This document shows positions 3,204 to 46,771 of a DNA stretch of 64,000 nt, piece by piece. The stretch is from Shewanella loihica PV-4 (lineage in GTDB: Bacteria; Pseudomonadota; Gammaproteobacteria; Enterobacterales; Shewanellaceae): NCBI RefSeq assembly GCF_000016065.1, contig NC_009092.1, positions 496,001-560,000 of the forward strand. Direction: 5' to 3'. The notes below the pieces were generated by a model, which saw only the letters and a list, made by a program, of their open reading frames with translations, did no database searches and had not been told where the DNA came from. Each line of letters starts with the position of its first letter. The first letter of the stretch is position 1. The position numbers were made by a program, and so were the translations under genes.

Positions 3204-4098
3204 CTACTTAAAAGCTGGCGTTGCGGCGCTAGCGCTGAGCTTTGCCTGTGGTGCACAGGCGAAATTGAATATCTTCGCCTGCGAGCCTGAATATGCCGCC
3301 TTGGCCAAGGAGCTGGCACCGGATGCCAAGATCTATGCCGCGACCACGGCGATGCAAGACCCGCATCAGGTGCAGGCCAGACCCAGCCTGATCGCCAAGA
3401 TGCGCCAGGCAGATCTGGCGGTCTGCGCCGGCGCCGATCTCGAGGTGGGCTGGCTGCCCATGTTGCAGATGAAGTCGGCCAACGCCCAGGTGCGCTCGAC
3501 TGATAAGGGGCTATTCTATGCCGCCGAGCATACTCAGACCTTGGATAAGCTGGCTCAGGTGGATCGCAGCATGGGCGATGTCCATGCCCAGGGCAATCCG
3601 CACCTGCACTTCGACCCAGAGCGTCTGCTGGAGGTGGCTAAGGCGCTGTCGGCCAAGATGGTGTCGTTGGATCCAGATAATCGCGCGGCCTACGAATCAG
3701 CCCTGGCCGATTTCAGCCAGCGTTGGCAGGCGGCGATAGCTGGTTGGCAGTCACAGGCGGCGCCGCTTAAGGGCAAGAAGGTGATCGCCTATCACACCAG
3801 CTTCCGCTACCTGTTTAACTGGTTGGGCATGGAGCAGGTGGGGGATCTCGAGCCTAAGCCTGGCCTGCCGCCAAGCACGGGGCACCTGGCCAGCCTGCAG
3901 GGGCGCGCCGGCCAGGGCGATGTGATGGCGATTATTGTCGCCTCCTATCAGGATGAGCGCGGCGCCAACTGGCTCGGTGAGCGCACCGGCTTGCCCGTGG
4001 TGAATCTGCCCATGTCGGTCGGTGGTAACGATGATGCCCAAAACCTCTTTGGCCTGTACGACAGCGTTATCCACTTGTTGCTGGGCGTGAATCGCTAG
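3187..4098 (+). CDS. znuA: Periplasmic metal-binding protein of a zinc ABC importer (ZnuA type)
   Basis: A 303-residue cluster A-I solute-binding protein. The signal peptide ends near GAQA. Family landmarks are DPHQVQ (about residue 57), the NPHLHFDP segment (about 137) and the AYHTSFRYL segment (about 200), which supply the metal-coordinating histidines; a final acidic ligand is expected near the GGNDD segment. The mature chain lacks the long His-rich loop of classical ZnuA. That function may have moved to the His-rich barrel encoded just upstream. The GTG start at 3187 lies inside the end of the barrel gene. The permease follows 60 bp later. Confidence 0.85.
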   Translation: MRINSNYLKAGVAALALSFACGAQAKLNIFACEPEYAALAKELAPDAKIYAATTAMQDPHQVQARPSLIAKMRQADLAVCAGADLEVGWLPMLQMKSANAQVRSTDKGLFYAAEHTQTLDKLAQVDRSMGDVHAQGNPHLHFDPERLLEVAKALSAKMVSLDPDNRAAYESALADFSQRWQAAIAGWQSQAAPLKGKKVIAYHTSFRYLFNWLGMEQVGDLEPKPGLPPSTGHLASLQGRAGQGDVMAIIVASYQDERGANWLGERTGLPVVNLPMSVGGNDDAQNLFGLYDSVIHLLLGVNR

Positions 4099-4158
4099 CC
4101 TGGTTTAGATCCGGCGCCCTCTTTGGGGGCGCCGTTGTTCGCTTTTTGGTACTCAACT

Positions 4159-4950
4159 ATGTTTGATCTCGATCTCTTATCAATTCTACTCCCTGCCTTC
4201 GCCGCGGGGATCCTGGTGCTCTCGACCCATGTCTTGCTCGGGAGTCAGGTGCTCAAGCGGGGCATCATCTTCATCGACCTGGCGATCGCCCAAGTGGCGG
4301 CGCTGGGGGCGATTATTGCCCACACTAACCATGAGCTGGAGCACCTCCCCTACGCCACGGTCTGGATGCCGGCCCTGTTTGCGTTGCTGGGGGCCGGGTT
4401 TATCGCCTGGCTGGCCAAGCGGATGGCCGATGAGCTGGAGGCGATCATCGGTTGCTTCTATGTGTTGTCGGCGGTGGCGGCCATGCTCTTGCTGTCAAAC
4501 GATCCCCATGGCGCAGAGATGCTTAAGCAGTTGATGTCTGGGCAGATCCTCTGGGTGAACTGGTCACAGTTAGTCTTACCGGCTGTGGTGTCTGGCCTGG
4601 TGCTGGCGATCATCGCCCTGCGCCCCACCATACTCAACGGCGCCGGTTTCTATCTGCTGTTTGCCTTAGTGATCACCCTGTCGGTGGAGCTGGTGGGCGT
4701 CTATCTGGTGTTCAGCTCGCTGATCCTGCCGGCGCTGGCGGTCAACAAGCTGCGAGGCAAGGGTAAGTGGCCGTTGGCTTACCTGGTGGGCCTGCTGGGC
4801 TATGGCATAGGCCTGCTGCTATCGGCTAGCTTCGATCTGCCTAGTGGCGCCGCGATTGTGGCGACCCTGGCGGTCAGCACGATAGCGTTTCGTCTGCTGC
4901 AGCCCAGACTACTCAGAGAAAGTTCGATTACAAAGGTCGAGGCTAACTAG
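4159..4950 (+). CDS. znuB: Zinc/manganese-type ABC transporter permease (ZnuB family, ABC-3)
   Basis: About 263 residues with seven to nine hydrophobic helices and the ABC-3 features GSQVLKRGIIFIDLAIAQVAALG, here broken as GSQVLKRGI then IDLAIAQVAALG (about residues 30-55), and a C-terminal SLILPALAVNKLRGKG segment. It should form the membrane channel for the metal delivered by the preceding binding protein. ATG 4159 is preferred because it gives the normal family N-terminus; a TTG at 4123 would add 12 residues. No ATP-binding-cassette gene lies in the cluster, so the permease must borrow an ATPase encoded elsewhere. Confidence 0.85.
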   Translation: MFDLDLLSILLPAFAAGILVLSTHVLLGSQVLKRGIIFIDLAIAQVAALGAIIAHTNHELEHLPYATVWMPALFALLGAGFIAWLAKRMADELEAIIGCFYVLSAVAAMLLLSNDPHGAEMLKQLMSGQILWVNWSQLVLPAVVSGLVLAIIALRPTILNGAGFYLLFALVITLSVELVGVYLVFSSLILPALAVNKLRGKGKWPLAYLVGLLGYGIGLLLSASFDLPSGAAIVATLAVSTIAFRLLQPRLLRESSITKVEAN

Positions 4951-5185: not shown

Positions 5186-5920
5186 GTGCTGTTAATCTTC
5201 AGATCTCTGATCTTAGCCATCATGTTGTTGTTGGCCTTTGTCTTCGGTGGCCTTTATTGTCTGCTGCGCCCCCGTCATAGAGACAATGTGCATCTGTTTG
5301 CTAAGATTTTTTCCTGGGCCGCGCCAGTATTGGGGGTCAAGGTGGTGGTGCGCAAGCCAAAGGTGGAGCGCAGCGAGCCCTGTATCTTCCTGGCCAACCA
5401 TCAGAACAATTTCGACATGTTCACCCATACGGCCGCCGTGCCAAAGGGCACAGTTAGCCTGGGCAAGAAGAGCCTGGCTTGGATCCCTTTCTTCGGCCAG
5501 ATCTACTGGCTGTCGGGTAACATACTGATCGACCGTAAAAACCGTAACCGCGCCTTCGAGACCATGGCGCAGACCGCGAAGAAGATTAAAGATAAGTGCC
5601 TCTCTATCTGGATCTTCCCAGAGGGCACACGCTCACGGGGCAAGGGGCTGCTACCCTTCAAGGCCGGCGCCTTTCATACCGCCATAGAGGCGGGTGTCGC
5701 CATGGTGCCTGTGCTGGCCTCGAATCAGGAACATATTAAGCTCAACCGCTGGAACAACGGCGTGGTGATCATCGAGGTGATGGATCCCATAGAGACCAAG
5801 GGTCTGGCTAAGTCTCAGGTAAAAGAGCTTTCTACCCGGATTCATGCCATGATGGCGGAAAAACTGGCCCAGCTTAATCAGGAAGCCAGCGCCCTGATGG
5901 CCAAGAAAGCAATTAATTAA
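5186..5920 (+). CDS. plsC: 1-acyl-sn-glycerol-3-phosphate acyltransferase
   Basis: A 244-residue PlsC-type acyltransferase. It transfers an acyl chain to lysophosphatidate to make phosphatidate at the inner membrane. An N-terminal hydrophobic anchor (about 1-26) precedes the four family motifs: NHQNNFD (the H-x4-D catalytic pair, about residue 71), NILIDRKNR (about 112), FPEGTRS (about 146) and the later VAMVPVLA segment. The GTG start at 5186 follows a clear AGGAG 6 nt upstream. It is 24 bp upstream of rraB on the same strand and may be co-transcribed with it. Confidence 0.92.
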   Translation: MLLIFRSLILAIMLLLAFVFGGLYCLLRPRHRDNVHLFAKIFSWAAPVLGVKVVVRKPKVERSEPCIFLANHQNNFDMFTHTAAVPKGTVSLGKKSLAWIPFFGQIYWLSGNILIDRKNRNRAFETMAQTAKKIKDKCLSIWIFPEGTRSRGKGLLPFKAGAFHTAIEAGVAMVPVLASNQEHIKLNRWNNGVVIIEVMDPIETKGLAKSQVKELSTRIHAMMAEKLAQLNQEASALMAKKAIN

Positions 5921-5944
5921 GAACATTTTTATTCGGAGAGATCC

Positions 5945-6352
5945 ATGTCTACAGAACGTCAGCTGCAGGAACAGAAACAGGAAAACCAGGAGATCGTGGA
6001 TGCGATTCTTGCCGATGGTTCTGAGCCTGATGCCGAATACACCATAGAGCACCACTTCTCGGCCTCTAACTTCGACCGTCTGGAGAAGGCGGCTGTGGAA
6101 GCCTTTAAGTTGGGCTTCGAGGTAAACGATGCCGAAGAGATGGAGCTGGAAGACGGCTCAGTGCTCTTTTGTTTCGACGCCATCGCCTACCACAAACTCG
6201 ACGTGGCCTTGCTGGACAAGGCCTGTGAAGATCTGATCCAGCTGGCGGCTAAGCTCAAGGTAGATTATGACGGTTGGGGCACCTATTTCATCGGCGACGA
6301 GATGGAAGATGATGACGAGGAGTATGAAGAGGAAGACTCTCGTTTCCATTAA
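5945..6352 (+). CDS. rraB: RraB, regulator of ribonuclease E activity
   Basis: A 135-residue acidic protein of the RraB (YjgD) family, which in E. coli binds RNase E and remodels degradosome activity. Visible hallmarks are the N-terminal helix rich in Gln/Glu, the central [18 protein letters not shown] segment, the [10 protein letters not shown] segment (about residue 100) and the strongly acidic C-terminus ([13 protein letters not shown]). Length matches the family. A GGAGAG ribosome-binding site precedes ATG 5945. It is followed by a strong bidirectional terminator. Confidence 0.93.
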
Positions 6353-6429: not shown

Positions 6430-7401
6430 CTATTCGGCTTCATCGGGATTGAAGATGACGCAGCAGTTACGCCCCTTCTGCTTGGCCTGATAGAGGGCGC
6501 TGTCGGCTTGGCCTAGCCACTGGGCGCTGTTGCTCAGGTGCTCGTCTATGCCGCAGATGCCGATACTCACCGTCACCTTGAGGATGGCGCTCTCAAACCT
6601 CAGCTCTGAGGCCTCGATCTTCTCCCGCAGGCGATCGGCAAAATGCAGTGCAGCCTCGGCATTGGTGTTTGACAGCACCACGGAGAACTCCTCACCGCCG
6701 TAGCGGCCGGCGCAGTCTGTGTCCCGAAGGGACTGACGCAGGATATGGGAGACATGCTGGATCACCCTGTCACCGGCGATATGGCCGTAGGTGTCGTTGA
6801 TCCGTTTGAAATGGTCTATGTCGAACATCACCAGTGTGGTGGGCTCGCCGTAGCGGGCATGGCGGTCGAACTCTTTCTGCATGCACAGCTGCCAGTGACG
6901 GCGGTTGTGCAGCTGGGTCAGGCCATCCGTCTGGCTCAGATGCTCCAGGCGCTCGTTGGCGGCCTTGAGCTGTAGCTTGTTGATCGCCACATCGGTAACG
7001 TCATAGATGATCATGCTGATATGGGTGATCTGGCCCGTGAGGGAGGAGAGGGGCAGCAGGGTCACATTCTGGTACATGAAGTCGGCGCGGCCCGTGATGG
7101 GGCGATAGTTGCCAAACTTAAACACATAGGGACGTTGCTCCCAGCTGATGAAGGCGCGGTTCTTGAGCAGAAACACAGACTCCATCTTCTGCTTCAGCCA
7201 GTTTGCCGGCAGGTAGTCGAATTGATCGAATATATTTTTGCCCTTGATGGAGTTGGGTGAGATGCCGCTATGGTTCTCCATGAAGCCGTTCCAGAGCTGG
7301 ATGTTGTAGTCGCGATCCAACACGACCAGGCCCACCTCTATGGTCTGCACCATATCGATTAGCCAGTGGAGTTCGTTCATCGCGCTTTGGTCATATGGCA
7401 T
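6430..7401 (-). CDS. PAS-GGDEF diguanylate cyclase
   Basis: About 323 residues. A PAS-like sensor occupies about 10-145 (the motif begins VQTIEVGLVVLDRDYNIQLWN and is split here only for naming). A GGDEF domain fills about 165-320, with NRRHW, DIDHFKRIND and the active-site GGEEF. An RDTD inhibitory site lies exactly five residues before GGEEF, so product inhibition by c-di-GMP is expected. The ATG at 7401 is chosen because it lies 13 bp after the stop of the upstream response-regulator gene and has a GGACC site; a longer frame would run into that gene. The two genes probably form a signal-transduction operon. Confidence 0.9.
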   Translation of the reverse strand: MPYDQSAMNELHWLIDMVQTIEVGLVVLDRDYNIQLWNGFMENHSGISPNSIKGKNIFDQFDYLPANWLKQKMESVFLLKNRAFISWEQRPYVFKFGNYRPITGRADFMYQNVTLLPLSSLTGQITHISMIIYDVTDVAINKLQLKAANERLEHLSQTDGLTQLHNRRHWQLCMQKEFDRHARYGEPTTLVMFDIDHFKRINDTYGHIAGDRVIQHVSHILRQSLRDTDCAGRYGGEEFSVVLSNTNAEAALHFADRLREKIEASELRFESAILKVTVSIGICGIDEHLSNSAQWLGQADSALYQAKQKGRNCCVIFNPDEAE

Positions 7402-7414
7402 ATCTTGGTCCAAC

Positions 7415-8410
7415 TTAATCCAGCAGGTAGCCCAGCTTATAGTTAAGCGTCGGCAAAGAGTCTTCGGTAAACAACAAGAGGAGATCGCATTGAATATCAT
7501 GGCCTTCGATGCGGTAGTTGATCTCCATCGCCAGAGTGCGGGACCATTTCTCCGAGTTGTCGTGAATCAGGTCGTTTACCGTGCAGTGACGCCCCAGCAC
7601 CACGGGATGGCTCTGGCTGAACTTCATGTGCAGCTGCTCCGAGATACCGCTGAGGAAGGCGCCGATAAGCACGTTGCCCGTATCTATCATCACCTCTATC
7701 TCTGTGTTGGCATCCTCGGGATTTGCCAGCCCCATCAGCTTGGCCATGTCCTGAAAGGAGGAGTCGTGAAACAGCAGTAGCGCCTCGCCAGCTACCCCTG
7801 CGCCGATAAAACCCTGGCACAGGGCCGATACCGTGCTGTAGCGCTCGGTGGCCTTGAGGGTCATGGTAAGTTCGCTGACTTCCAGCACGTTGACGTTAGG
7901 GATTGGCAGCAGCACGAAGACATCCAGCAGCTTGGCCAGCAGATCGGCGGCGCGGCCCATGGCCACGTTGGCGACTTCCTGGCAGGCGTCGCGCAGATCC
8001 ACCTCTATCATGGGGTTGTCGTTGTCTTGCTCCCCTAGGGCTATGGTGAGTATGCCGTACTCCTGGAGTATGTTACTGATGGCATCGGCGCTTACCGGCT
8101 TCTGAATAAAGTCCAGGGCGCCTAGGGCCTTCACCTTCTCGTGGGCCTTGATCTGAATGTCACCGGAGACCACGATCACTAGGGCGGGCAGATCTTCCTT
8201 CTGAATCGTCTCCAGTACCTCGTAACCATCCATGACAGGCATGTTGAGATCGAGAAAGACCACTTCGCCCTTGCCGGCCCTGATCGCCTCGATACCTTCG
8301 GCACCATTGTTGGCAAAGGTGATCTCGACATCCCACTCCTTGGGCAGGGTCCTGGCCATCTGCTTGCGAGCGAGTGCGGAGTCATCGCATATGAGTACGG
8401 GAATCGACAT
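7415..8410 (-). CDS. Response regulator with CheC-type phosphatase domain
   Basis: A 331-residue protein. An N-terminal receiver domain (about 1-120) has the acidic pocket DD (9-10), the phospho-acceptor Asp in FLDLNMPVMDG, the Ser in VVSGD and the Lys in IQKP. A C-terminal CheC/CheX-like domain (about 135-331) carries one canonical phosphatase motif, D-x3-E-x2-N-x22-P (DACQEVAN). A second motif has Asp in place of the Glu (E-x3-D-x2-N-x22-P, around MIDTGN). The layout suggests that it removes phosphate from itself or a partner. It is the first gene of the pair with the GGDEF cyclase, so phosphorylation may set c-di-GMP output. Confidence 0.88.
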   Translation of the reverse strand: MSIPVLICDDSALARKQMARTLPKEWDVEITFANNGAEGIEAIRAGKGEVVFLDLNMPVMDGYEVLETIQKEDLPALVIVVSGDIQIKAHEKVKALGALDFIQKPVSADAISNILQEYGILTIALGEQDNDNPMIEVDLRDACQEVANVAMGRAADLLAKLLDVFVLLPIPNVNVLEVSELTMTLKATERYSTVSALCQGFIGAGVAGEALLLFHDSSFQDMAKLMGLANPEDANTEIEVMIDTGNVLIGAFLSGISEQLHMKFSQSHPVVLGRHCTVNDLIHDNSEKWSRTLAMEINYRIEGHDIQCDLLLLFTEDSLPTLNYKLGYLLD

Positions 8411-8815
8411 CTAGTTATAACATCCTAATCTGCCTTCATTATTAGAAGATAACACCAAATCACTTGCTTGGTGGCTAAAAGCTTCGTCCTGAGGCAGTTT
8501 TCATCGGTTTTGTCTGTGGTAATGACAGGGTTTAATGGGACTTGCAGTTGGTCTCTTTGCCGGGGGCATCTACCCCAATCCCAGGCATCCAGGCCGGGTC
8601 GCCGGGTATGTCGGCGCAGGTATATGACAAGCTTTGCCCAAAGGTTATTATCTATCAGCTTGATTAACAACCGTAAACTCTTAAGTGGCAATATTTTGAC
8701 GCCAGTCAAAAAACGGACTTATGTTATATCTTTTAGGGATATTTGCCAAATGTGTTACATTTCTTCTGGACTGACCAGTAGCAGAGTTTAACTGCAGCGA
8801 TTGAGGAGTAAAGGA
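8411..8815. other. Divergent intergenic region
   Basis: About 405 bp between the response-regulator operon (left) and the crotonase gene (right). Besides the FadR-like site at 8766-8778 I found no convincing structure or gene. Short open frames here lack ribosome-binding sites and look like noise. Confidence 0.6.
8766..8778 (+). promoter_or_regulatory. FadR-like operator upstream of the crotonase gene
   Basis: CTGGACTGACCAG is an inverted repeat that closely resembles the fatty-acid regulator FadR operator core (CTGGTnnGACCAG). It lies 37 bp before the ATG of an enoyl-CoA hydratase-family gene, a position suited to repression, which fits regulation of fatty-acid breakdown. Whether this genome encodes FadR cannot be seen here. 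Confidence 0.5.
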
Positions 8816-33440: not shown

Positions 33441-35102
<1,662 letters not shown>

Positions 35103-35151
35103 TTCTAGCTGGTTAAAATCGTCTATAGCGGCGTTATCTTGCCACTCGTTT

Positions 35152-35209
35152 AGACAGCTAAACGTCGCGGCAAGATGCCTTGCTCTAAAACGATTTTTCC
35201 TGCGCTAGA
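35152..35209. repeat. Direct repeat copy 1 downstream of groEL
   Basis: 58-bp segment starting AGACAGCTAAACGTCGCGG; the second copy begins 239 bp later. They differ at one position. Similarity continues, more weakly, to the terminator that follows each copy. Confidence 0.9.
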
Positions 35210-35252
35210 AGCAATGCTGGTCTAAAGCTCAGAAGCTTAGAACGTAAAAATG

Positions 35253-35287
35253 AAAGCCCCGATACTTAACCGTATCGGGGCTTTTTC
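35253..35287 (+). terminator. Terminator of groESL
   Basis: AAAGCCCCGATAC and GTATCGGGGCTTT form a 13-bp perfect stem with a 6-nt loop and a T tract. Confidence 0.95.
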
Positions 35288-35390
35288 ATATGGATATGAT
35301 TATCCCCGGAGTATATGGATATACGAAGAGGGGATTTGCTTTGTGGTGAGTGAGCAGCGCTGTGTTGCCACATGCTTGTAAGGTATTAGC

Positions 35391-35448
35391 AGACAGCTAA
35401 ACGTCGCGGGAAGATGCCTTGCTCTAAAACGATTTTTCCTGCGCTAGA
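35391..35448. repeat. Direct repeat copy 2 downstream of groEL
   Basis: Second copy of the 58-bp segment. Its following sequence is more diverged from copy 1 and contains the weaker hairpin at 35500-35524. Confidence 0.9.
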
Positions 35449-35499
35449 TACTCTGCTGGTCTTAAGCCTAACAGCCTGAAACCAAAAGAATAGAAGCCG

Positions 35500-35524
35500 C
35501 GGTATCGTCAGATAGCGTTTTTTT
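35500..35524 (+). terminator. Degenerate terminator in the second copy
   Basis: CGGTATC-GTCA-GATAGCG is an imperfect stem followed by seven T residues. It occupies the place that corresponds to the groESL terminator in copy 1, as expected from a duplicated groEL flank. Confidence 0.5.
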
Positions 35525-35628
35525 CAAGGCCATTTTTAATAAGTAAGCTAAAGCTTAAAGTTAATATTATAAGTGAATGAATGCAGGGGAATGACTTGCA
35601 ATTTTTAATGGGTGTCAAGACTGTTGTT

Positions 35629-36156
35629 TTATTTAAATAAAAATTTCATTATCTCAATAAATAAATAAACAATGGCTGTCCCGAAAAACATACCGAAGAG
35701 TGTATGGCGATAGGACCAAAACATATAAGACTTTGATGATACAATTTTGTCGAAATGAGTATTTTCAATTCCATCTATTAAGTCTTCACAACATTCTTGC
35801 AGCTCAAACTTTAGCCGCTCTCTATCCTCGACAGACGTTTTTTTGTCTAAATAACACTCTATATCAAAGTTGTAAAGTGGCGTTAATTTATCTTCGCTAA
35901 TGAATTTACATGAGGAAAGTTTGTTCAACTGCCTAAGTTTCCAATTTACGCGAGAAACTTTAGCGTTATATCGTTCTTGCTCATATAGTTTTTCACTTTT
36001 TTCTTCGCTCCATTTGAACTCAGATAAAGAAGCTATTAGATCAATTAATGCGTCTTTTTGAGCGGATATTGCTCCACGCTTTACACTATGATGATGTATA
36101 AATAGACTAAGAATCCAACTGATGAATATCCATTCGAACTTTATCCAGCCAGTCAT
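35629..36156 (-). CDS. Two-helix membrane protein of the GHKL/STAS-like operon
   Basis: 175 residues with an N-terminal hydrophobic helix (about 8-20), a long charged, Lys/Glu-rich cytoplasmic or periplasmic middle with coiled-coil character (about 25-140), and a C-terminal helix (about 152-172). I do not recognise a family. It starts with ATG overlapping the stop of the DUF4325 gene by 4 bp, so translation is coupled. A/T-rich codon use differs from the core genes around it. As the third gene of the operon it may be the membrane target or effector of the ATPase/STAS-like pair. Confidence 0.75.
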   Translation of the reverse strand: MTGWIKFEWIFISWILSLFIHHHSVKRGAISAQKDALIDLIASLSEFKWSEEKSEKLYEQERYNAKVSRVNWKLRQLNKLSSCKFISEDKLTPLYNFDIECYLDKKTSVEDRERLKFELQECCEDLIDGIENTHFDKIVSSKSYMFWSYRHTLFGMFFGTAIVYLFIEIMKFLFK

Positions 36157-36500
36157 TTTGGTCTCTTTTGTTCAGCAGCAATAATACGATCATTAGCAGT
36201 CGTTACAAAGTTTTCTACAGTGTCATGTTTTATTGTTAACTTCTCATCTAATTCTTCTTTTGTAAATCCTCTGCGGGAAATCAATCCCCCGAATGCTTCA
36301 TCCAAAAATGACCTTCCATATCTATTGTATCCTGTTAGATCAACAATTACTTTATCGTTGGCCTTTAGAGCATCGACTAAAATTGTATCGCGAAAAACTT
36401 CTCCAGCTGTAAATTCACAGCCTGGCGCGTCATCTTTATATCGACCTTTTGGTCGTGGGTGGAATTCGTTGGTAACCACTATCGTTTTAACAGAGTTCAT
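36153..36500 (-). CDS. STAS-like (DUF4325) protein
   Basis: 115 residues with the DUF4325 core: GEVFRDTILVDALKANDKVIVDLTG (about 33-57, shown here as GEVFRDTIL and KVIVDLTG), then SFLDEAFGGLI (about 64-74). This is the STAS-like fold, related to anti-anti-sigma factors but lacking a conserved phospho-Ser I can place with certainty; Ser 64 lies at the expected loop. It overlaps both neighbours: 14 bp with the ATPase gene and 4 bp with the membrane-protein gene. AT-rich composition. It is likely the partner that the GHKL ATPase binds or phosphorylates. Confidence 0.82.
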   Translation of the reverse strand: MNSVKTIVVTNEFHPRPKGRYKDDAPGCEFTAGEVFRDTILVDALKANDKVIVDLTGYNRYGRSFLDEAFGGLISRRGFTKEELDEKLTIKHDTVENFVTTANDRIIAAEQKRPK

Positions 36501-37653
36501 CTAGTTTTATGCTCCATTGAAGTAACGTACCAGATAGTTCATTTTGTAATTCTATCCTAGTATGCTCTTCCTTGCCTCCTTTATTGTATTGATAGCATCC
36601 GCTATTGCTCAATATGATTAGTTTACTGTCTGCGTCAGTGGTTACAATATCTTTTATTGAAACGCTTCCTTGCCCGTGACTATCATCATCTAAACTTGTC
36701 ATGTCATGCATCATGGAAGCATGGATTAGACCTGAATCACCGATAGTATTTCGTAGCGGTGCAATCATAGACTTTGCGGTTCGCACCAACTTAGTAAGCT
36801 GACCTAATTTAGAGTTATCTTCTATTTCACCGTGAAGTAGTTTAGAAAACTCTTCCGGATAGTGCTTTTTCACTCTGTTTTGGAATACTTTACTGTCTTC
36901 AAATGATAGTGGTATGCCCCTGCCTGAATCGAATATTGCTAAATACATATACTCTTCTTTTTCATTCCCGTTATGGCCAATTGAACATACTAGCCACCAT
37001 TTCTTATCTTTGTCTAAAGGTTGGTCTGGATAAGCATGGCGACCAACATTTTCTAGTGTTTCAATTACTGCTTGAGATATGCGTGATTCGATATTGTCCG
37101 GGATATCACCGTCGTAAAACTTATCTCTAATTGCGTCGACTAAGGCGTCAGGAAAAGTTTGATATTCTTGATTGCTGCCGCTTATGACTGGAATTCTCTT
37201 TATTTTTGGGTTAAACATGGCCTGATTTCGCTCAGCTTTAGGGGAAAATGCTCCAGAATCTTTTATAAGCTTATTAACGAATGGAGATTTTTTAGACCAG
37301 ATAACGGATATTTTGCAATTGTATTTGTCTTGAATCTCATATAACAACAAAAAGACTGGCAGATTTGTGACTGTTGTGTTTACGAAAGACAGATAAATGT
37401 GTTTTTTCTCGCTGAGCAATATTTTAAAATCTTGTAGAAAATCAACAAATGCCTGATCGTAACCAGTTCTAACAATATCAAATATTTTGGGTACAGGTAA
37501 AATTGGAATGTTAAAAATTGTCTCCAATTTTTTTCCATTGAATGAATGAATAGCATGGCCTTTAAAAATATTATGATTTTTTCCTATTCGATTAGCGTAG
37601 AAGCTGGCTTTTTTTGCAAGTTCTCGGTCATGGACTTGTAGTTTCTTTTTCAT
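36487..37653 (-). CDS. GHKL-type ATPase with N-terminal STAS-like domain
   Basis: 388 residues. Residues about 60-135 have the alternating strand/helix pattern of a STAS-like domain (HIYLSFVN, then CKISVIWSKKSPFVNKLIKDSG). A GHKL ATPase domain follows: the N box ETLENVGRHA (198-207, catalytic Glu and Asn), the G1 box DSGRGIP (242-248), and a terminal GTLLQWSI strand. This is the kinase fold of anti-sigma and MORC/Hsp90-type enzymes, without a His-phosphorylation domain. It starts the three-gene, overlapping operon. Composition is distinctly A/T-rich, as expected of transferred DNA. Substrate unknown. Confidence 0.8.
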   Translation of the reverse strand: MKKKLQVHDRELAKKASFYANRIGKNHNIFKGHAIHSFNGKKLETIFNIPILPVPKIFDIVRTGYDQAFVDFLQDFKILLSEKKHIYLSFVNTTVTNLPVFLLLYEIQDKYNCKISVIWSKKSPFVNKLIKDSGAFSPKAERNQAMFNPKIKRIPVISGSNQEYQTFPDALVDAIRDKFYDGDIPDNIESRISQAVIETLENVGRHAYPDQPLDKDKKWWLVCSIGHNGNEKEEYMYLAIFDSGRGIPLSFEDSKVFQNRVKKHYPEEFSKLLHGEIEDNSKLGQLTKLVRTAKSMIAPLRNTIGDSGLIHASMMHDMTSLDDDSHGQGSVSIKDIVTTDADSKLIILSNSGCYQYNKGGKEEHTRIELQNELSGTLLQWSIKLDELC

Positions 37654-37869
37654 TTATCTGAGTACCAAGTGTTATTGATGGCTGCCGTAGGTCATTGATT
37701 GGTATTTTTTAATTTATAATAAGGTGTTTGATTGACTCATTTTTAAGAAATAGCATTCCGGGCAAAGAGACATTGGTTTGGAAGTTCTATTTCTATTCTT
37801 TGCGTAGTTTTTTACTGGAGAGATTTTTGTATAGATAATGCTCAATGAGTCGTTAATTCTTGTAGCAGT

Positions 37870-38667
37870 TTACTTCCCATTCTTCTTGGCTCGTTTGCTC
37901 TCTCTGATCCACATGACTGAACCGTTGGTTTTTCGCATCTCGAATAGGTCTATGGCGGCGAAGAGATCGCTGAGTTTCTTGAAGCCATAGTTTCTTTGGT
38001 CGAATGAGCTGTGGTTCGAAATGTGAGAGCCGATGGGGCCGAGGCGTGACCAGCCGTCATCTTCTTCTGTTGCCTCAATTGCCTGTCGCAGTAGGTGAAT
38101 TAACTTGGTGTCACCTTTAAGGTTTTGTTTGCGTGGAACACTGGCTTTTGTGGTTGGCGTGGTGGTTTTTGCTTCTTTATCTGTTGCTGACTCAGTTACT
38201 TTCTCTATAGGCACTTCTACTTCGGTTTCAACTTCGGGTTCTGCGTCTAGGTAGAGGAAGCGAGAGCAGCTGTTGACGAAAGCGGTGGGGGCTTTACGTT
38301 CGCCAAAGCCGAATACCTTTTTGCCGTCTGAGAGCACTCTGGTGACTAAGGGAGTGAAGTCGCAGTCAGAGGAGATGAGGCACATGATATCTATATCTTT
38401 GGTGTATAAGATGTCCATGGCATCGATTACCAGTGCGATATCTGTGGCGTTCTTTCCTTTGGTCAGGTCGAACTGTTGAATAGGTTGAATGGCATATTCG
38501 TGCAGTATGTCTTCCCAGTGCTTCAGGCCTGGGCTTTTCCAGTTGCCGTAGGCTTTGCGAATACTCACCACGCCATGTTTGGCTAGCTCAGCCAGTATCA
38601 CGTCAAACTTTCTTGCCGGTGCGTTATCTGCGTCGATAAACACCGCTATTTTCGCTACGTCTTGCAT
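37870..38667 (-). CDS. NYN-domain protein with C-terminal LOTUS (OST-HTH) domain
   Basis: 265 residues. The N-terminal NYN/PIN-like nuclease domain (about 5-140) has the acidic motif VFIDADNAP (about 9-17), DIALVIDAMD (about 76-85) and SSDCDFTPLV (about 97-106), which would hold the metal-binding acids. A Glu/Thr-rich linker (about 145-190) leads to an OST-HTH/LOTUS RNA-binding domain (about 195-258, with RLGPIGSHISN). The layout is that of bacterial LabA-like proteins thought to act on RNA. Role unknown. GC content is intermediate. Confidence 0.85.
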   Translation of the reverse strand: MQDVAKIAVFIDADNAPARKFDVILAELAKHGVVSIRKAYGNWKSPGLKHWEDILHEYAIQPIQQFDLTKGKNATDIALVIDAMDILYTKDIDIMCLISSDCDFTPLVTRVLSDGKKVFGFGERKAPTAFVNSCSRFLYLDAEPEVETEVEVPIEKVTESATDKEAKTTTPTTKASVPRKQNLKGDTKLIHLLRQAIEATEEDDGWSRLGPIGSHISNHSSFDQRNYGFKKLSDLFAAIDLFEMRKTNGSVMWIRESKRAKKNGK

Positions 38668-38698
38668 CTGCTAGCCCCGAAATTGAAGTTGCTATTAG

Positions 38699-39073
38699 TT
38701 AGTTTTGATTTTTGACGGAAGAGAAGTAAAAACCGCAGACAGAGCCTATGATGGCACCAGAAAAGGCAAGAATTTCTGAGAAGTACTTATTTTCAAAAAT
38801 TGCTGCCTCAGCAATGATGATTAATAGGATTACTACAATAGCAATAGCCAGCAAGGGGGCGATTCGTTTGTTCATTCGCTCGGTTAGGGGCTCAGCTTTA
38901 CCTATGCCACCGCATGAGCCACACATCAGTCCATGCTGATTTTGTCTACGCCAGAAAGGGAGTTCGTTCTTCTTGGCACAGGCTTCACATGAACAATTAT
39001 CTTTGCCGTTGGTGCAGGTACCTGTCCCCGAGCAGTGTTGACAGTCATACAGGTTTACTTTGATTTCGTGCAT
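38699..39073 (-). CDS. DnaJ-type zinc-finger membrane protein
   Basis: 124 residues. CQHCSGTGTC, CSCEAC and CGSCGGIG form CxxCxGxG-like knuckles as in the DnaJ cysteine-rich domain. Two transmembrane segments follow, at about 72-90 (APLLAIAIVVILLIIIAEA) and 99-117. No J domain is present. It may act as a membrane-bound zinc-finger chaperone-like or redox protein. The start ATG 39073 is preferred because AAAGGA lies 9 nt upstream; the nearer ATG 39082 has that site too close. It is co-directional with the NYN gene. Confidence 0.68.
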   Translation of the reverse strand: MHEIKVNLYDCQHCSGTGTCTNGKDNCSCEACAKKNELPFWRRQNQHGLMCGSCGGIGKAEPLTERMNKRIAPLLAIAIVVILLIIIAEAAIFENKYFSEILAFSGAIIGSVCGFYFSSVKNQN

Positions 39074-39237
39074 CAAACTCATTCCTTTGAAAATGCCTTC
39101 AAGTGGTGCGTTGGAGCGTTGAGGGATTGGATAAGGGCGATTGCTCGTAGAGCGTTTATGAGCGCGAACCATGGATGGTGAGCTGGCACTTTTGCATGGA
39201 CGCAATTGCCTGTCGAAACGGTCCCCTTTCCCCCGGT

Positions 39238-39278
39238 GTGGTGTGGAACACCACGACTTTCGCCAAGCGTAGCTTGGC
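39238..39278. repeat. Cluster of two short palindromes
   Basis: Two adjacent inverted repeats in the 39.1-39.4 kb non-coding part: one with 7-bp arms GTGGTGT/ACACCAC, the other with 7-bp arms GCCAAGC/GCTTGGC. The cause is unknown; they may be part of a repeat element. Confidence 0.5.
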
Positions 39279-39717
39279 ATCAGGTATCAAAACAGCATCA
39301 GGGCTGTCATCCCTGTCATAGGCATCGCTACCGCCCGAAATTCTAGCTATTCCAGAGCGCGTAATATCCAATTAATGCTAATAAAAACAATGTTAAAGCT
39401 ATCATTCTGTCGCAGATAAAACCTTATCCAAGGTCAAAAACTATGCAGATTGGCTGAGCCAGAGCCAGAGAGGGGAGTTTGAGGTGAGGTGTGAAAGCTG
39501 TCCTTGCCTTATGCCGTCTCTCTGGTGAGAGCGGCGCCATCCCTGACATTCATTCGCATACTTTAGTAAGCGCTTAAATATTGTTTTAACAACAAAACAT
39601 TAACTTATCCTACAGTATCGCCGCCGCGCAAGGCAATAGTGAACAAGGCACCGCTTCGAAATGGTCGGGAGCCGTCAGATTAGTGTCGATGATGTTTTGC
39701 GGTGTTAGAGACTCTGA

Positions 39718-39739
39718 GAGTGTAACAAATGACACTTTT
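39718..39739. promoter_or_regulatory. HipB operator 1
   Basis: GAGTGTA and TGACACTTTT flank a 5-bp spacer; the dyad centre is at 39727.5. It is the most distal and weakest of four related operators. Confidence 0.65.
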
Positions 39740-39765
39740 GGCCCATTTGCTAACCCGAACAGATG

Positions 39766-39790
39766 AAAGGTGTATGATGTTACACTTTTT
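39766..39790. promoter_or_regulatory. HipB operator 2
   Basis: AAGGTGTA-TGATGT-TACACTTT; centre at 39777.5, exactly 50 bp from operator 1. Confidence 0.75.
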
Positions 39791-39815
39791 GCTCTATCGG
39801 TCTTGTTAATACTTA

Positions 39816-39839
39816 AAAAGTGTATGTTGCTACACTTTT
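39816..39839. promoter_or_regulatory. HipB operator 3
   Basis: AAAGTGTA-TGTTGC-TACACTTT; centre at 39827.5, exactly 50 bp from operator 2. Confidence 0.8.
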
Positions 39840-39865
39840 ATGTTGAATCATCCCTTTATCGTGGC

Positions 39866-39889
39866 TAAAGTGTAGCAAAGTACACTTTA
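39866..39889. promoter_or_regulatory. HipB operator 4
   Basis: TAAAGTGTA and TACACTTTA are perfect inverted arms with a 6-bp spacer; centre at 39877.5, exactly 50 bp from operator 3. It ends 10 bp before the hipB ATG and so covers the leader and likely the ribosome-binding region. Confidence 0.85.
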
Positions 39890-39899
39890 TGGTGATCTT

Positions 39900-40136
39900 A
39901 TGAGCTCCTCGTTAAACCAAGATTCGTTGGGATTACTGATTAAAACCCGCAGGAAGGAAGCGGCGCTGACTCAAGAGGTGGCGGCAATGTTGTGCGGTGT
40001 CACTAAGAAAACCTTGATTCGTGTCGAGAAGGGCGAAGATGTCTACATCTCTACCGTATTCAAGATACTTGATGGTCTGGGGATTCGGCTCGCTGTCGAG
40101 TCAAAGTCAGATGCCGGCTCAAGTGAGTGGTACTAG
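39900..40136 (+). CDS. hipB: HipB-type antitoxin and repressor
   Basis: 78 residues with a Xre-type helix-turn-helix (about 10-65: [19 protein letters not shown], then [12 protein letters not shown]). It would bind the toxin HipA and repress the operon by binding the four palindromic operators just upstream. The ATG at 39900 follows a weak GGTGAT. The stop codon lies 2 bp before the toxin start. Confidence 0.9.
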
Positions 40137-40138
40137 CC

Positions 40139-41440
40139 ATGGCCGAATCACCAATCCTTGTGTTAGATATGCTACTTGGTGACCAGCTTATCGGCGCGTT
40201 GTCATTTGATCCAAGCGATGAGCGTTTTGCGGTCAGCTACACTCAAGCCTGGCAGCAAAGCGGTTTTCCATTATCACCTACGATCCCTTTGGATGGCTCG
40301 GGTAGCAGTACGCAAATTGCCATGTTTCTGGTTAATTTGCTGCCTGAGAATAAGGGGCTCGATTACCTTGTTGAATCGCTTGGTGTTGCAAAGGGCAATA
40401 CCTTTGCGCTCATCCGGGCCATTGGCCTAGATACTGCGGGTGCCATCGCCTTTTCTTCTAAAGGTTCTGCATTTCCACCGACAACACTCCGGACTATCAG
40501 TGACGATGAGATCGTTCAGCGACTGGAAGATCCTGAGTTCTGGCCGATGGAGATTTGGGATGGTAGACCCAGGCTGTCGGTGGCTGGGGTACAGTCAAAG
40601 TTAAATCTCTTCTTTAATGGTGAGGAGTTTGGCTTCGGTGAAGGAGCACTGTCATCGACACATATCCTGAAGTTTGAACAGCATCCGCATCTGGTCATCA
40701 ACGAGTTCCTTACTATGCGCTTGGCTAAGGCGCTGGCCTTGAAAGTCGCGAATGTCGAAATTCGTTGTTTTGGCCAGTATAAATCCTTGTGTGTCGAACG
40801 TTTCGATCGTCGCTATCTGGACGATGAAAACAGGGTGCAGAGGCGGCACATTATCGATAGTTGCCAAGCACTTGGTTTTAGCGTCAACAAGAAATATGAA
40901 CGTAACTTTGGTAGTGGACGGGATGTCAGGGATATTCGTGAAGGTGTCAGCCTGCCAAGGTTGTTTGGTCTTGCGAATCAATGTATTAATCCGGCTGCAG
41001 CCAAGCAGGATATGTTGCGGTGGACGCTGTTCAATTTATTGAGTGGCAATGCCGATGCCCATGGGAAAAACTACTCGTTTTTTATGACGCCTAACGGGAT
41101 GTTACCTACACCTTGGTATGACCTCGTTTGCGTGGCCTTATATGAGGATTTTGAACAAGAGTTGGCAATGGCGATAGATGATGAGTTCGATCCCAATAAG
41201 ATCTATGCCTATCAACTTGCCGCCTTTAGTGAAGAGGTGGGATTACCAAGAGCCTTAATCGTAAATAGCCTGGATAAGATGGTGGCTAAGATAAGGCTCG
41301 AAATTAATGGTGTCATCGCCATGCTCAAAGACTTGGACGAAGATGAGCAGGCTTTTGTGGAGGCATATAAGGCACAACTGCTGGCCAGATGCGAACGTTA
41401 TTCGGCGATCGCTCCTGAAATCAAGGCTATTGAGCTTTAA
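40139..41440 (+). CDS. hipA: HipA-type serine/threonine kinase toxin
   Basis: 433 residues. HipA kinases slow translation in persister cells; in E. coli the target is glutamyl-tRNA synthetase. The autophosphorylation loop AGVQSKL carries Ser153 and the catalytic Asp is Asp306 in SGNADAHGKN; the metal-binding Asp follows in TPWYDLVC (about 327). These match E. coli HipA Ser150, Asp309 and Asp332 in order, so the enzyme looks active. Tightly spaced 2 bp after hipB. A terminator-like hairpin follows at 41446. Confidence 0.92.
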   Translation: MAESPILVLDMLLGDQLIGALSFDPSDERFAVSYTQAWQQSGFPLSPTIPLDGSGSSTQIAMFLVNLLPENKGLDYLVESLGVAKGNTFALIRAIGLDTAGAIAFSSKGSAFPPTTLRTISDDEIVQRLEDPEFWPMEIWDGRPRLSVAGVQSKLNLFFNGEEFGFGEGALSSTHILKFEQHPHLVINEFLTMRLAKALALKVANVEIRCFGQYKSLCVERFDRRYLDDENRVQRRHIIDSCQALGFSVNKKYERNFGSGRDVRDIREGVSLPRLFGLANQCINPAAAKQDMLRWTLFNLLSGNADAHGKNYSFFMTPNGMLPTPWYDLVCVALYEDFEQELAMAIDDEFDPNKIYAYQLAAFSEEVGLPRALIVNSLDKMVAKIRLEINGVIAMLKDLDEDEQAFVEAYKAQLLARCERYSAIAPEIKAIEL

Positions 41441-41445
41441 CCCTT

Positions 41446-41477
41446 AACAGGCCATCGGCATCAGCCGAGCTGTTTTT
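41446..41477 (+). terminator. Terminator of hipBA
   Basis: AACAG and CTGTT outer arms with TCGGC and GCCGA inner arms form a hairpin followed by T residues, right after the hipA stop. Confidence 0.7.
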
Positions 41478-41509
41478 AATGATTAGGACAAATTTCCTTA
41501 AGTGGAGCT

Positions 41510-42568
41510 ATGGTATGGATACACAACATGTATGAAGATCTTATGCCGGTTTTGGTGATCGCCGTGACGCTGGCGTTGCTCGTTGCCGTCATGCTTTTTA
41601 TCGAGGGGCGACGTAAGCCGACCATAATGCCGGGCTGGCTCGATCTGCAGGGCTTTGAGCGCCTGTTCATCTACTGGGACGCGCCGAGCGCGAAGGAGTA
41701 TGGCGAAAAGCATCCCCGCCGTTATCAGCGTCTGCTCGAGGCCTGGCAAGATCTGCCGCCAGAGGAGGCCTGGTTTCATTACAACCTCTCCTGCATCGGC
41801 GTGACGCCTGTGGGGTCGAGTGTGCGTAGCGCGAAACGTTGGTGTCAGAAGGCCTGGCTGAAGAAGCAGGATGTTGAGGCGGCCTATCATCTGGGGATGA
41901 TGCAGCTCATGGGCTTGGGCGGGGCGCCGGAGTATCGCTCGGCGCTGACACTGTTTGAGGCGGCGGAGCAAGGGGGCATCATACGCGCCACTACCGCTCG
42001 CGGCCTGATGTTGCTGCGTGACCCTGGTTTTATGAATACTGGCTTTGTAAATACAGGCGATGGCAACTCATGTATAGGAGATTCTGGCTTAGCAGAGGAC
42101 TGGCCAATCGAGGTGCCCAAGGCGCAGCGCCACGGCGAGGCGCTGGCTTGCTTCACGGGGGCGTTTGAACAGGGCGATATGCTGGCGGCGCTTAACTTGG
42201 GTTACATGTTGGAGCATGGTCTTGGTTTAGATGCGGGTGCAGAAGCTGAAAGCGCGGCCAATCTGGATCGCGCCATCGAGAGTTATCTGCTGGCAGCAGA
42301 GGCCGGATTGCCGGCCGCTCAGTATCGTCTGTCTATGCTGTTTGAGGATCGCGGTGAACTGGTCGATGCCTACCGTTGGGCCTATATTGCAGCGGCCTGT
42401 TCTGAGTCCGACATTCCCATGGCCCGCAGCCAGAGGTTGGCGACCCTGCTGGACAGACGCACCCTGCAGCAGGCGCAGGAGTCGGCCAGGGTAACCGCCC
42501 ACAGGATAATGACGCCACGGGTGCTCGCCATGTTACATAACCTTAAGCATCTGCGCAGCGCGGCCTAA
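41510..42568 (+). CDS. Membrane-anchored Sel1-repeat protein
   Basis: 352 residues. An N-terminal membrane helix (about 13-31) is followed by Sel1/TPR-like repeats: AAYHLGMMQLMGLGG (about 124-138), AALNLGYMLEHGLGL (about 226-240) and AAQYRLSMLFEDRGE (about 266-280). Such repeats make protein-protein contact surfaces. GGAG precedes the ATG. It lies just outside the hipBA island in the same direction; codon use has returned to the host pattern. The partner is unknown. Confidence 0.82.
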   Translation: MVWIHNMYEDLMPVLVIAVTLALLVAVMLFIEGRRKPTIMPGWLDLQGFERLFIYWDAPSAKEYGEKHPRRYQRLLEAWQDLPPEEAWFHYNLSCIGVTPVGSSVRSAKRWCQKAWLKKQDVEAAYHLGMMQLMGLGGAPEYRSALTLFEAAEQGGIIRATTARGLMLLRDPGFMNTGFVNTGDGNSCIGDSGLAEDWPIEVPKAQRHGEALACFTGAFEQGDMLAALNLGYMLEHGLGLDAGAEAESAANLDRAIESYLLAAEAGLPAAQYRLSMLFEDRGELVDAYRWAYIAAACSESDIPMARSQRLATLLDRRTLQQAQESARVTAHRIMTPRVLAMLHNLKHLRSAA

Positions 42569-45499: not shown

Positions 45500-46771
45500 C
45501 TAGTTGGTTTCGTAGTGGGCGATCGGCAGCTGGCTGACGCTATCGAGTCGCCAGGCGCCCTTCTCATACACAAAGCTGACGCTGTGCAGGGCATCCTTAA
45601 AGTCATAGCGTTCGCTTGATTTGGGCAAGGCATCTTTAAATTCGACCTGAATGTTTTGGTAGCCTTGCTCGAGCGACATCTTACTCAGATGGCTGGGCAG
45701 GTCTATCAGGCGGCTCAGCGCCTTGTCTAACTCACGATCCTTGATCGGTAGCTTGAGTTTAAACTGCTCGCTGAACAGCGCCGAGAAGGCCTGTTTATCT
45801 TTGCTGTGGGTGTAGGCGGCGACAGTCCAGTCGGCCAGCAGCAGTTCGAATGCCTTGTCGGCCTGGGTGAGCGAAGCGATAGGCGTCTTGTTGTCGTTGG
45901 CGAGGTATGCCTTGAGGGTCGCCTCGGCTGCTTGGTATCCGTCGATGAAGATCTGCGCCACCTCAGTCGCCGCCGGATCTTGGCTCGCCTTAAGCTCATC
46001 GGTTACCGCCGCGATGGCGTCCCCTCGGGCCTGCCAGCTGTCGAAGCCCTTCATCAGGCCTTGGAGTGAGGCCTTATGCTGTTTTACCACCTCGGCAACG
46101 GCCTTATCCTGTTGGCGCGCCTGTCTGATCTTGGTGCCGACATACTCGCTGTAGGTGCCGCTGAGCAGGCTGGCTGGCGACTCGAAGTAGAGGCCCGCAC
46201 CGCTATAGGGATCGACCCAGAAAGCGCTGCTATCTATCGGTGCCATGGTCTTGGGCGTTATGCCATCGAAGTAGAGATCTGTGAGTGCCGTCTTGTGCTT
46301 AGCGTAGAAGGCAGCAATCGCCTTGCTATCCGTTGCGGGCACTTGCCGGTATTGCGCCGCTAGTTGTTGCAGGCCATGGGATGCCTGGATCCTCTGACTG
46401 GCATAGTAGCCGCAGCGCAGGTCACAGGCTTGTTTGGTCAGGGTAGAGGTCGCACCTAAGTTTATCGCCTTGCTCTGCACAAACACCTCGGCGGTATAGA
46501 TGCCTCTGGGGATGGCGCCGCTCTTATCCATCAGATAGATGGTATTCCTGGGGCTATGGCGGCCGACGACCTGGAGATCTTGCTTGCTGGCGCAGAGGGA
46601 AAAGTCACGGCTGGTGACCGGCAGCTCCTTGTTGTAGGTGGAGACGACCAGCTTATCCAGGTTAATCCCTTCGGGCACTGTGCCTGTGATGCTGAGGTTA
46701 CACTGCTGAGCGTTAGCGTTTATTGTCATCGCGCCTAAGCCTAGGCCGATGATCAGACATCCTTGTTTCAT
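45500..46771 (-). CDS. Secreted protein of unknown family
   Basis: 423 residues with a signal peptide ending near ANA. Residues about 20-120 have strand-rich segments and Cys at about 23, 58, 117 and 121; the latter reads QACDLRCGYYAS. The middle (about 130-330) is helical with many Ala/Gln. The end (about 370-420) is a KGAWRLDSVSQLP strand-rich stretch as in NTF2-like or DUF4878-type domains. I cannot assign a function. The gene is single, convergent with the DUF3108-like gene. Confidence 0.65.
   Translation of the reverse strand: MKQGCLIIGLGLGAMTINANAQQCNLSITGTVPEGINLDKLVVSTYNKELPVTSRDFSLCASKQDLQVVGRHSPRNTIYLMDKSGAIPRGIYTAEVFVQSKAINLGATSTLTKQACDLRCGYYASQRIQASHGLQQLAAQYRQVPATDSKAIAAFYAKHKTALTDLYFDGITPKTMAPIDSSAFWVDPYSGAGLYFESPASLLSGTYSEYVGTKIRQARQQDKAVAEVVKQHKASLQGLMKGFDSWQARGDAIAAVTDELKASQDPAATEVAQIFIDGYQAAEATLKAYLANDNKTPIASLTQADKAFELLLADWTVAAYTHSKDKQAFSALFSEQFKLKLPIKDRELDKALSRLIDLPSHLSKMSLEQGYQNIQVEFKDALPKSSERYDFKDALHSVSFVYEKGAWRLDSVSQLPIAHYETN

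Follow-up and report, generated by a model that had tools for sequence, protein, structure and literature searches.

The minus-strand genes at 35629-37653 of the window (the whole 64-kb stretch of DNA that was analysed) encode a kinase, a STAS-like protein and a small membrane protein, here called K, S and M, and we read them, by analogy and with a probability of about 0.6, as a VapKSC-like module for abortive infection or toxin-antitoxin action whose effector is a membrane protein. VapKSC is a kinase-STAS switch that holds the VapC nuclease (Chambers et al. 2026, EMBO J, June 2026, PMC13373217). We put at about even odds the broader proposal that membrane-type K-S-M trios are a separate branch of kinase-gated immunity, as yet undescribed and, within the sampled order, outnumbering VapKSC-like trios by 18 to 3 among 26 DUF4325 places, in which an anti-sigma-type kinase would free a membrane-disrupting effector with a [GS]W/juxtamembrane basic-acidic motif from a STAS antitoxin, the phosphoserine lying one residue off that of VapS (Arg-Ser in two-helix trios, Ser-Ser in most one-helix trios).

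In the ORF list the genes lie in the order K-S-M and overlap by 14 bp (K/S) and 4 bp (S/M), and their GC content is 33-38% compared with 55.4% for the window, which bears out the overlapping operon on AT-rich DNA of the preliminary description. PADLOC has no model that matches K, S or M of the window, NCBIfam names none of the three (only a meaningless match of M, E 0.58), K and M fall below every Pfam cut-off, and Rfam finds no match across 34900-41600. Two E. coli trios, together with the kinase and third protein of Marinobacter phage AS1, gave only a weak LeoBC match with PADLOC (E 0.013). A promoter scan returned 9 hits where 8.6 are expected and is not used as evidence.

Table 1. Features of the K-S-M locus, with positions in the window.
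Feature	Position	Strand	Description
K	36487..37653	-	388-aa GHKL (SpoIIAB-like) putative serine kinase with a probable N-terminal STAS domain
N box of K, E198-H206, ETLENVGRH	37036..37062	-	Glu198, Asn202 and His206 in 57/57 aligned kinases
G1 box of K, D242-P248, DSGRGIP	36910..36930	-	D242 and G244 in 57/57, G246 in 56/57
G2 box / ATP lid of K, H326-S330, HGQGS	36664..36678	-	G327 and G329 in 57/57
S	36153..36500	-	115-aa DUF4325 STAS-like protein with a short C-terminal tail; putative inhibitor (antitoxin) of M
Arg63-Ser64 of S	36309..36314	-	Arg at the inferred VapS phosphosite position; neighbouring Ser64 the putative phospho-acceptor
M	35629..36156	-	175-aa membrane protein, putative effector
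N-terminal hydrophobic helix of M, ~residues 8-22	36091..36135	-	invariant S13-W14 of the [GS]W motif (alignment)
Juxtamembrane KRGAISAQKD of M, residues 26-35	36052..36081	-	Arg27 and Asp35 in 18/18 rows; K26 in at least 90%
C-terminal hydrophobic helix of M, ~residues 150-172	35641..35709	-	hydropathy 1.85 at 152-170; helix 142-174 in model
Block of K-S-M, NYN-LOTUS gene and gene 38699-39280	35487..39765	.	blastn and tblastn against G009

The preliminary description had offered the three genes as a possible system, and the trio does recur as a unit, small membrane protein included, in 22 of 23 K-bearing genomes. Within the order, 17 genomes out of 394 contain a match to the K profile, and within the phylum 7 out of 398; two genomes belong to both sets, and the genome studied here is counted. 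A search of 40 relatives with the single protein adds one more, G011. S follows K directly in all but one of these (G436, locus L045), and in every K-S genome S is followed in turn by a small protein whose hydrophobic stretch scores 1.4 or more. On viral contigs K, S and a small protein stand together in 22 of 23 loci, the other (L079) ending at the contig edge; in one viral contig (L058, 6154-6505) the S gene is broken into two frames. Homology searches returned 69 relatives of K, 19 of M and 148 of S, of which 120 are listed; the closest named ones belong mostly to Vibrio, Shewanella and Aliivibrio (for S, among the matches listed), and in Aliivibrio fischeri ES114 VF_2039 is a relative of K and VF_2040 of S. 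The third protein of L102 has no hydrophobic stretch, and in L110, L135 and L049 S is present without a recognised membrane partner.

DUF4325 itself occurs in several settings. The 26 places found in the order, sorted by reading, comprise 18 membrane-type trios, 3 trios with a PIN-type third protein (L093, L123, L133), 3 single chains with DUF4325 at their C-terminal end, and 2 others; the 30 loci drawn from 31 places in the phylum comprise 9 membrane-type trios (counting L101, with a kinase piece only, L102, and L104, where the start of the third gene is unsure), 3 of PIN type (L090, L091, L093), 6 single chains and 12 others, with G037, G188 and the genome of the window present in both searches. 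Of the five PIN-type loci, two (L090 and L093) clear the Pfam cut-off for PIN, two (L091 and L123) fall short of it, and one has no match: L133, whose third protein looks PIN-like at its start by eye; all five fit the published VapKSC layout (PMC13373217). The nine single chains (L085, L087, L088, L094, L096, L099, L113, L114, L117) are 334-355 aa long, and three of them (L085, L088, L113) have a below-cut-off HATPase match before DUF4325 and weak HTH-type matches at the start; they are possibly CapK-like and STAS parts joined in one chain.

For comparisons across types we picked 60 loci by hand, one per place where possible: 55 membrane-type, a default label for loci lacking a PIN third gene that hence includes L102, and 5 PIN-type. 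The table leaves out repeats, L058 (S split), L045 (no S), L049 (no K), L079 (contig edge), the nine single-chain loci and those with S but no recognised third gene (L082, L083, L095, L097, L098, L100, L103, L105, L107, L109, L110, L111, L134, L135), and keeps the near-duplicates L055/L081 and L071/L077/L122. The tree of 57 kinases made from it omits L050 (interrupted), L101 (only 186 aa, weakly matching HATPase) and L123 (start mis-set), and is rooted at the midpoint for drawing only, with some long branches. Four PIN-type kinases form one group with support of 100/100 and the 53 membrane-type kinases lie on the other side, where 31 rows with a two-helix, M-type third protein group at 80/84 and 22 one-helix or other rows fall outside both groups. 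On this tree, effector type tracks kinase ancestry. The interrupted kinase of L050, on an Acinetobacter plasmid, lies in two pieces (3626-4195 and 5481-5999) around a copy of ISAba14; S and the third gene there keep open frames.

The GHKL fold with N and G1 boxes read earlier from the sequence of K holds up. Its predicted structure, made from an alignment of the query with 44 of 69 relatives, has a SpoIIAB-type fold when compared with known structures, in matches that mostly span residues 153-388 only, and the motif residues are invariant or nearly so in the 57-kinase alignment. That alignment takes in the four PIN-type kinases, and the Glu/Asn/His and G1/G2 catalytic residues are common to both types. 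A STAS domain probably precedes the GHKL domain: in a Foldseek search of the model the STAS structure 1vc1 matches with probability 0.98 but E 0.077, and the E. coli homologue of K has a below-cut-off Pfam STAS match (E 0.0029). No Pfam HTH matches the N-terminus at E 1, where residues 20-30 of the model are of low confidence. The column of F90 is aromatic in 91% of kinases and reads F/F/M/F in the PIN-type ones; it is at most a tentative counterpart of F54, the conserved aromatic for ssDNA in VapK (PMC13373217), and the alignment gave no firm place for the residue that stacks on ssDNA in VapK and CapK. K also matches phrog_3364 (E 2.2e-39), a family of unknown function, and a sequence search of solved structures gave no relative (best E 0.13 with the single sequence, 0.35 with the alignment).

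S is a DUF4325 protein, as had been proposed: PF14213 matches residues 32-93 of 115 with E 2.6e-16, and about 22 residues follow. Pfam finds DUF4325 alone, with no DNA-binding domain and no C-terminal wHTH; S matches the C-terminal part of phrog_5816, likewise of unknown function, and has no relative among solved structures by sequence (best E 1.2). The SpoIIAB-type fold of K and the STAS-like S together uphold the anti-sigma kinase/STAS partner logic suggested at the outset.

Which residue would such a kinase modify? We placed Ser48 of VapS provisionally on the Arg63 column, by position and motif. Arg63 and Ser64 are both invariant in 30 of 30 close S homologues. In the 60 aligned S proteins the Ser64 column holds Ser in 55 of 55 membrane-type rows and Ala or Pro in all five PIN-type rows, whose preceding column is Ser or Thr throughout (residue 48 in the L133 protein). 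The same preceding column in the membrane-type rows is Arg in 30 (S of the window among them), Ser in 22, Pro in 2 and Ala in 1. An hhalign comparison gives the same register, at very low probability. Because Arg occupies the inferred VapS phosphosite in 30 of the 55 membrane-type rows, the VapS switch cannot carry over unchanged, and the two-helix branch, judged from this column, either uses Ser64 or has lost phospho-control.

M resists assignment to a fold. Its model, from the query and 17 of 19 relatives, is all-helical and of modest confidence (mean pLDDT 73.8, pTM 0.51), and we claim no fold identity, since only generic helical bundles match, none with E of 0.001 or less. Pfam finds no recognisable toxin domain and no PIN match in M, and a profile comparison with one single-helix third protein shows no similarity (probability 2.5). 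The hydropathy of the N-terminal helix is just 1.35 in the protein of the window. Membrane prediction here is a crude Kyte-Doolittle scan alone, with a threshold of 1.4, which is reached by 53 of 55 membrane-type third proteins (L102 scores 0.77 and L056 1.39) and 0 of 4 PIN-type ones, and also, in the controls, by 4 S proteins out of 60 and by 26 of the 57 kinases, which are longer. After removal of copies at 90%, which keeps 52 of the 55 third proteins, [GS]W occurs within the first 70 residues of 36 (500 shuffles: mean 10.2, maximum 22), and in 12 of the 24 one-helix proteins (shuffle mean 4.1, maximum 9). This feature common to the N-termini of third proteins is suggestive only, since the motif was picked after looking at the sequences.

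M could also be a membrane sensor or anchor that reports envelope or infection stress to K and S, with the output elsewhere, in growth control or another protein. A two-helix build with a helical region in the cytoplasm is typical of receptors too, switches of the RsbW/RsbV type usually take their input from sensors upstream, and neither Pfam nor the fold search gives M a toxin domain. Yet five related loci have a PIN-type protein in the position behind S, and no other gene is constant beside the trio in the neighbourhoods read; we consider a sensor unlikely, though worth keeping in mind beside the effector that we favour.

In this genome the trio belongs to a 4.3-kb block; at the same place in G009, a genome of the same genus, groEL and hipBA are only about 149 bp apart. 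G009 carries hipBA right after groEL (identity to the window proteins: 73% for hipB across 78 aa, 75% for hipA across the 208 aa visible), has neither the trio nor the NYN gene there, and has no match to K genome-wide. Because hipBA keeps this site without the rest, we rejected hipBA and the NYN gene as parts of the system, and the hipBA neighbour loses the value as a context clue that it had been given. The trio has a lower GC content (33-38%) than its NYN and 38699 neighbours (47-49%) and may therefore have arrived separately from the rest of the block. Beside it, 37870-38667 encodes a NYN nuclease with an OST-HTH/LOTUS domain, and 38699-39280 a protein with weak DnaJ-like matches (NCBIfam E 0.006) and, by eye, cysteine motifs and a hydrophobic C-terminal part. 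A 22-nt inverted repeat (91%) at 39817-39888, just 5' of hipB, is a possible operator. Within the genus the 3' side of groEL varies: in G015 the gene there is related to the one at 45500 in the window (49% over 307 aa), and in G011 it encodes an AAA_13-type ATPase. Cargo at this site in relatives includes an AAA_13/AbiEii-like ATPase (L159, 525-2870) and a ricin-B-lectin/pectate-lyase-like protein (L156, 618-2234). After groEL the window has a 97-nt direct repeat (85%; 35152-35248 and 35391-35487), and related copies follow groEL in several same-genus genomes.

Elsewhere the trio travels on mobile elements. In E. coli MSB1_9D it occupies the interval from integrase to psu of a P4-type satellite (one neighbourhood read), and its DNA is found in 4 of 5,426 E. 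coli genomes; a second E. coli version, present in 6 of the 5,426, adjoins a prophage integrase. The P4 int-psu slot is a published antiviral hotspot and reservoir of antiviral systems, as the K139-like cI-int slot is an antiviral hotspot of Vibrionaceae (PMC9122126). In four prophage contigs the trio stands between a repressor (CI type in L059, L002 and L057, S24 type in L061) and a phage integrase, slots whose arrangement resembles that of the cI-int hotspot. A T5orf172/DUF4041 gene shares this interval in L059 and L057, and L057 and L061 hold further genes. The T5orf172/DUF4041 gene lies directly upstream of K in L059 (3288-4874), L057 (3290-4963) and L004 (6399-7982, V. aestuarianus), and on the L057 contig a DUF3427/NOV_C protein (7162-8538), a possible defence gene, adjoins the trio. 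Marinobacter phage AS1 has the trio near Cro/CI, and it also occurs on a conjugative (ICE-like) plasmid and on other plasmids. A table for Francisella phage KIRK lists a 293-aa protein, a DUF4325 protein and a TM protein in a row, uncommented; judged from these entries, they may be the same trio. The phage-defence setting first proposed finds stronger support in the int-psu and repressor-integrase slots elsewhere than in the hipBA and NYN neighbours here.

These settings bear on two further explanations. An addiction module that mainly stabilises mobile elements, with phage protection a side effect, would fit a trio found on a conjugative plasmid, other plasmids, prophages and a satellite, but the trio also sits in one published antiviral slot and in slots like a second (PMC9122126), and a kinase exceeds the needs of an addiction pair, which makes this account quite improbable. 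That K and S instead control lysogeny, superinfection or a sigma factor, with M an accessory, is more doubtful still: the trio often lies beside CI-type repressors and integrases, but S consists of one STAS-like domain, about 115 aa in all, in which Pfam finds no DNA-binding domain, and the trio also occurs outside recognised prophages (after groEL here, and on the ICE-like plasmid).

How might a kinase-gated membrane effector work? VapS neutralises VapC, a phosphomimic abolishes this neutralisation, and the operon protects against at least one phage (PMC13373217); by this precedent we expect S to keep M in check until K frees it. For K-S-M we infer the phosphorylation, the ssDNA trigger, S-M binding, the toxicity of M and phage protection; membrane harm by M is suggested by the hydrophobic helices of the protein and by the position of its gene in the operon. 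In the resting cell S would bind M, probably by its short C-terminal tail, and keep it harmless. Phage attack would be sensed via K, perhaps through ssDNA bound between its STAS and GHKL domains, a mechanism suggested for CapK and VapK (PMC13373217), and K would then phosphorylate S, most likely on Ser64. Phosphorylated S would release M, and free M would oligomerise in, or damage, the inner membrane, so that growth halts before phage release.

If this is right, the SpoIIAB/SpoIIAA partner switch of sporulation would be a general immune trigger whose effector slot can be refilled with an RNase or a membrane protein, and DUF4325, a family rarely named in the open-licence PMC literature, would gain a role. 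The predictions are directly testable at Ser64, Asn202 and the S tail, in E. coli and Aliivibrio fischeri ES114 as tractable hosts.

Among known systems, the anti-sigma switches SpoIIAB/SpoIIAA and RsbW/RsbV differ in that no sigma factor is seen in the K-S-M operon, where a membrane protein follows instead, and in that K probably has its own STAS domain. CapK and CapS also pair a GHKL kinase with a STAS partner in immune loci, but CapK begins with an HTH and CapS ends in a wHTH (PMC13373217), whereas S is a lone STAS-like domain and the K-S pair is followed by its own small gene. As to genomic setting, the MSB1_9D trio lies inside the P4 int-psu hotspot and the prophage contigs offer slots comparable to the K139-like cI-int hotspot; the main text of PMC9122126 contains neither 'STAS' nor 'GHKL', and its supplementary tables, beyond that scope, may list the trio unnamed. 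The earlier judgement that no described system has these parts stands in part: VapKSC is the same switch with a PIN toxin, and the trio with a membrane protein was not found as a defence system in the open-licence PMC papers searched. The main text of PMC13373217 has no 'transmembrane', and its four 'membrane' passages are unrelated to an effector. VapKSC, which lies within 10 kb of another defence gene in 36% of cases (PMC13373217), has the same order of kinase, STAS protein and effector, the same SpoIIAB-type GHKL kinase and a small single-STAS protein with a short C-terminal region (VapS residues to 116, S 115 aa). It differs in having the PIN nuclease VapC where a membrane protein fills the third slot here, in that the kinases of membrane-type trios sit on a branch apart from PIN-type kinases, and in the inferred position of VapS Ser48, which is Arg63 in S with Ser64 adjacent. 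Among described systems K-S-M is closest to VapKSC, with a membrane protein in place of the nuclease.
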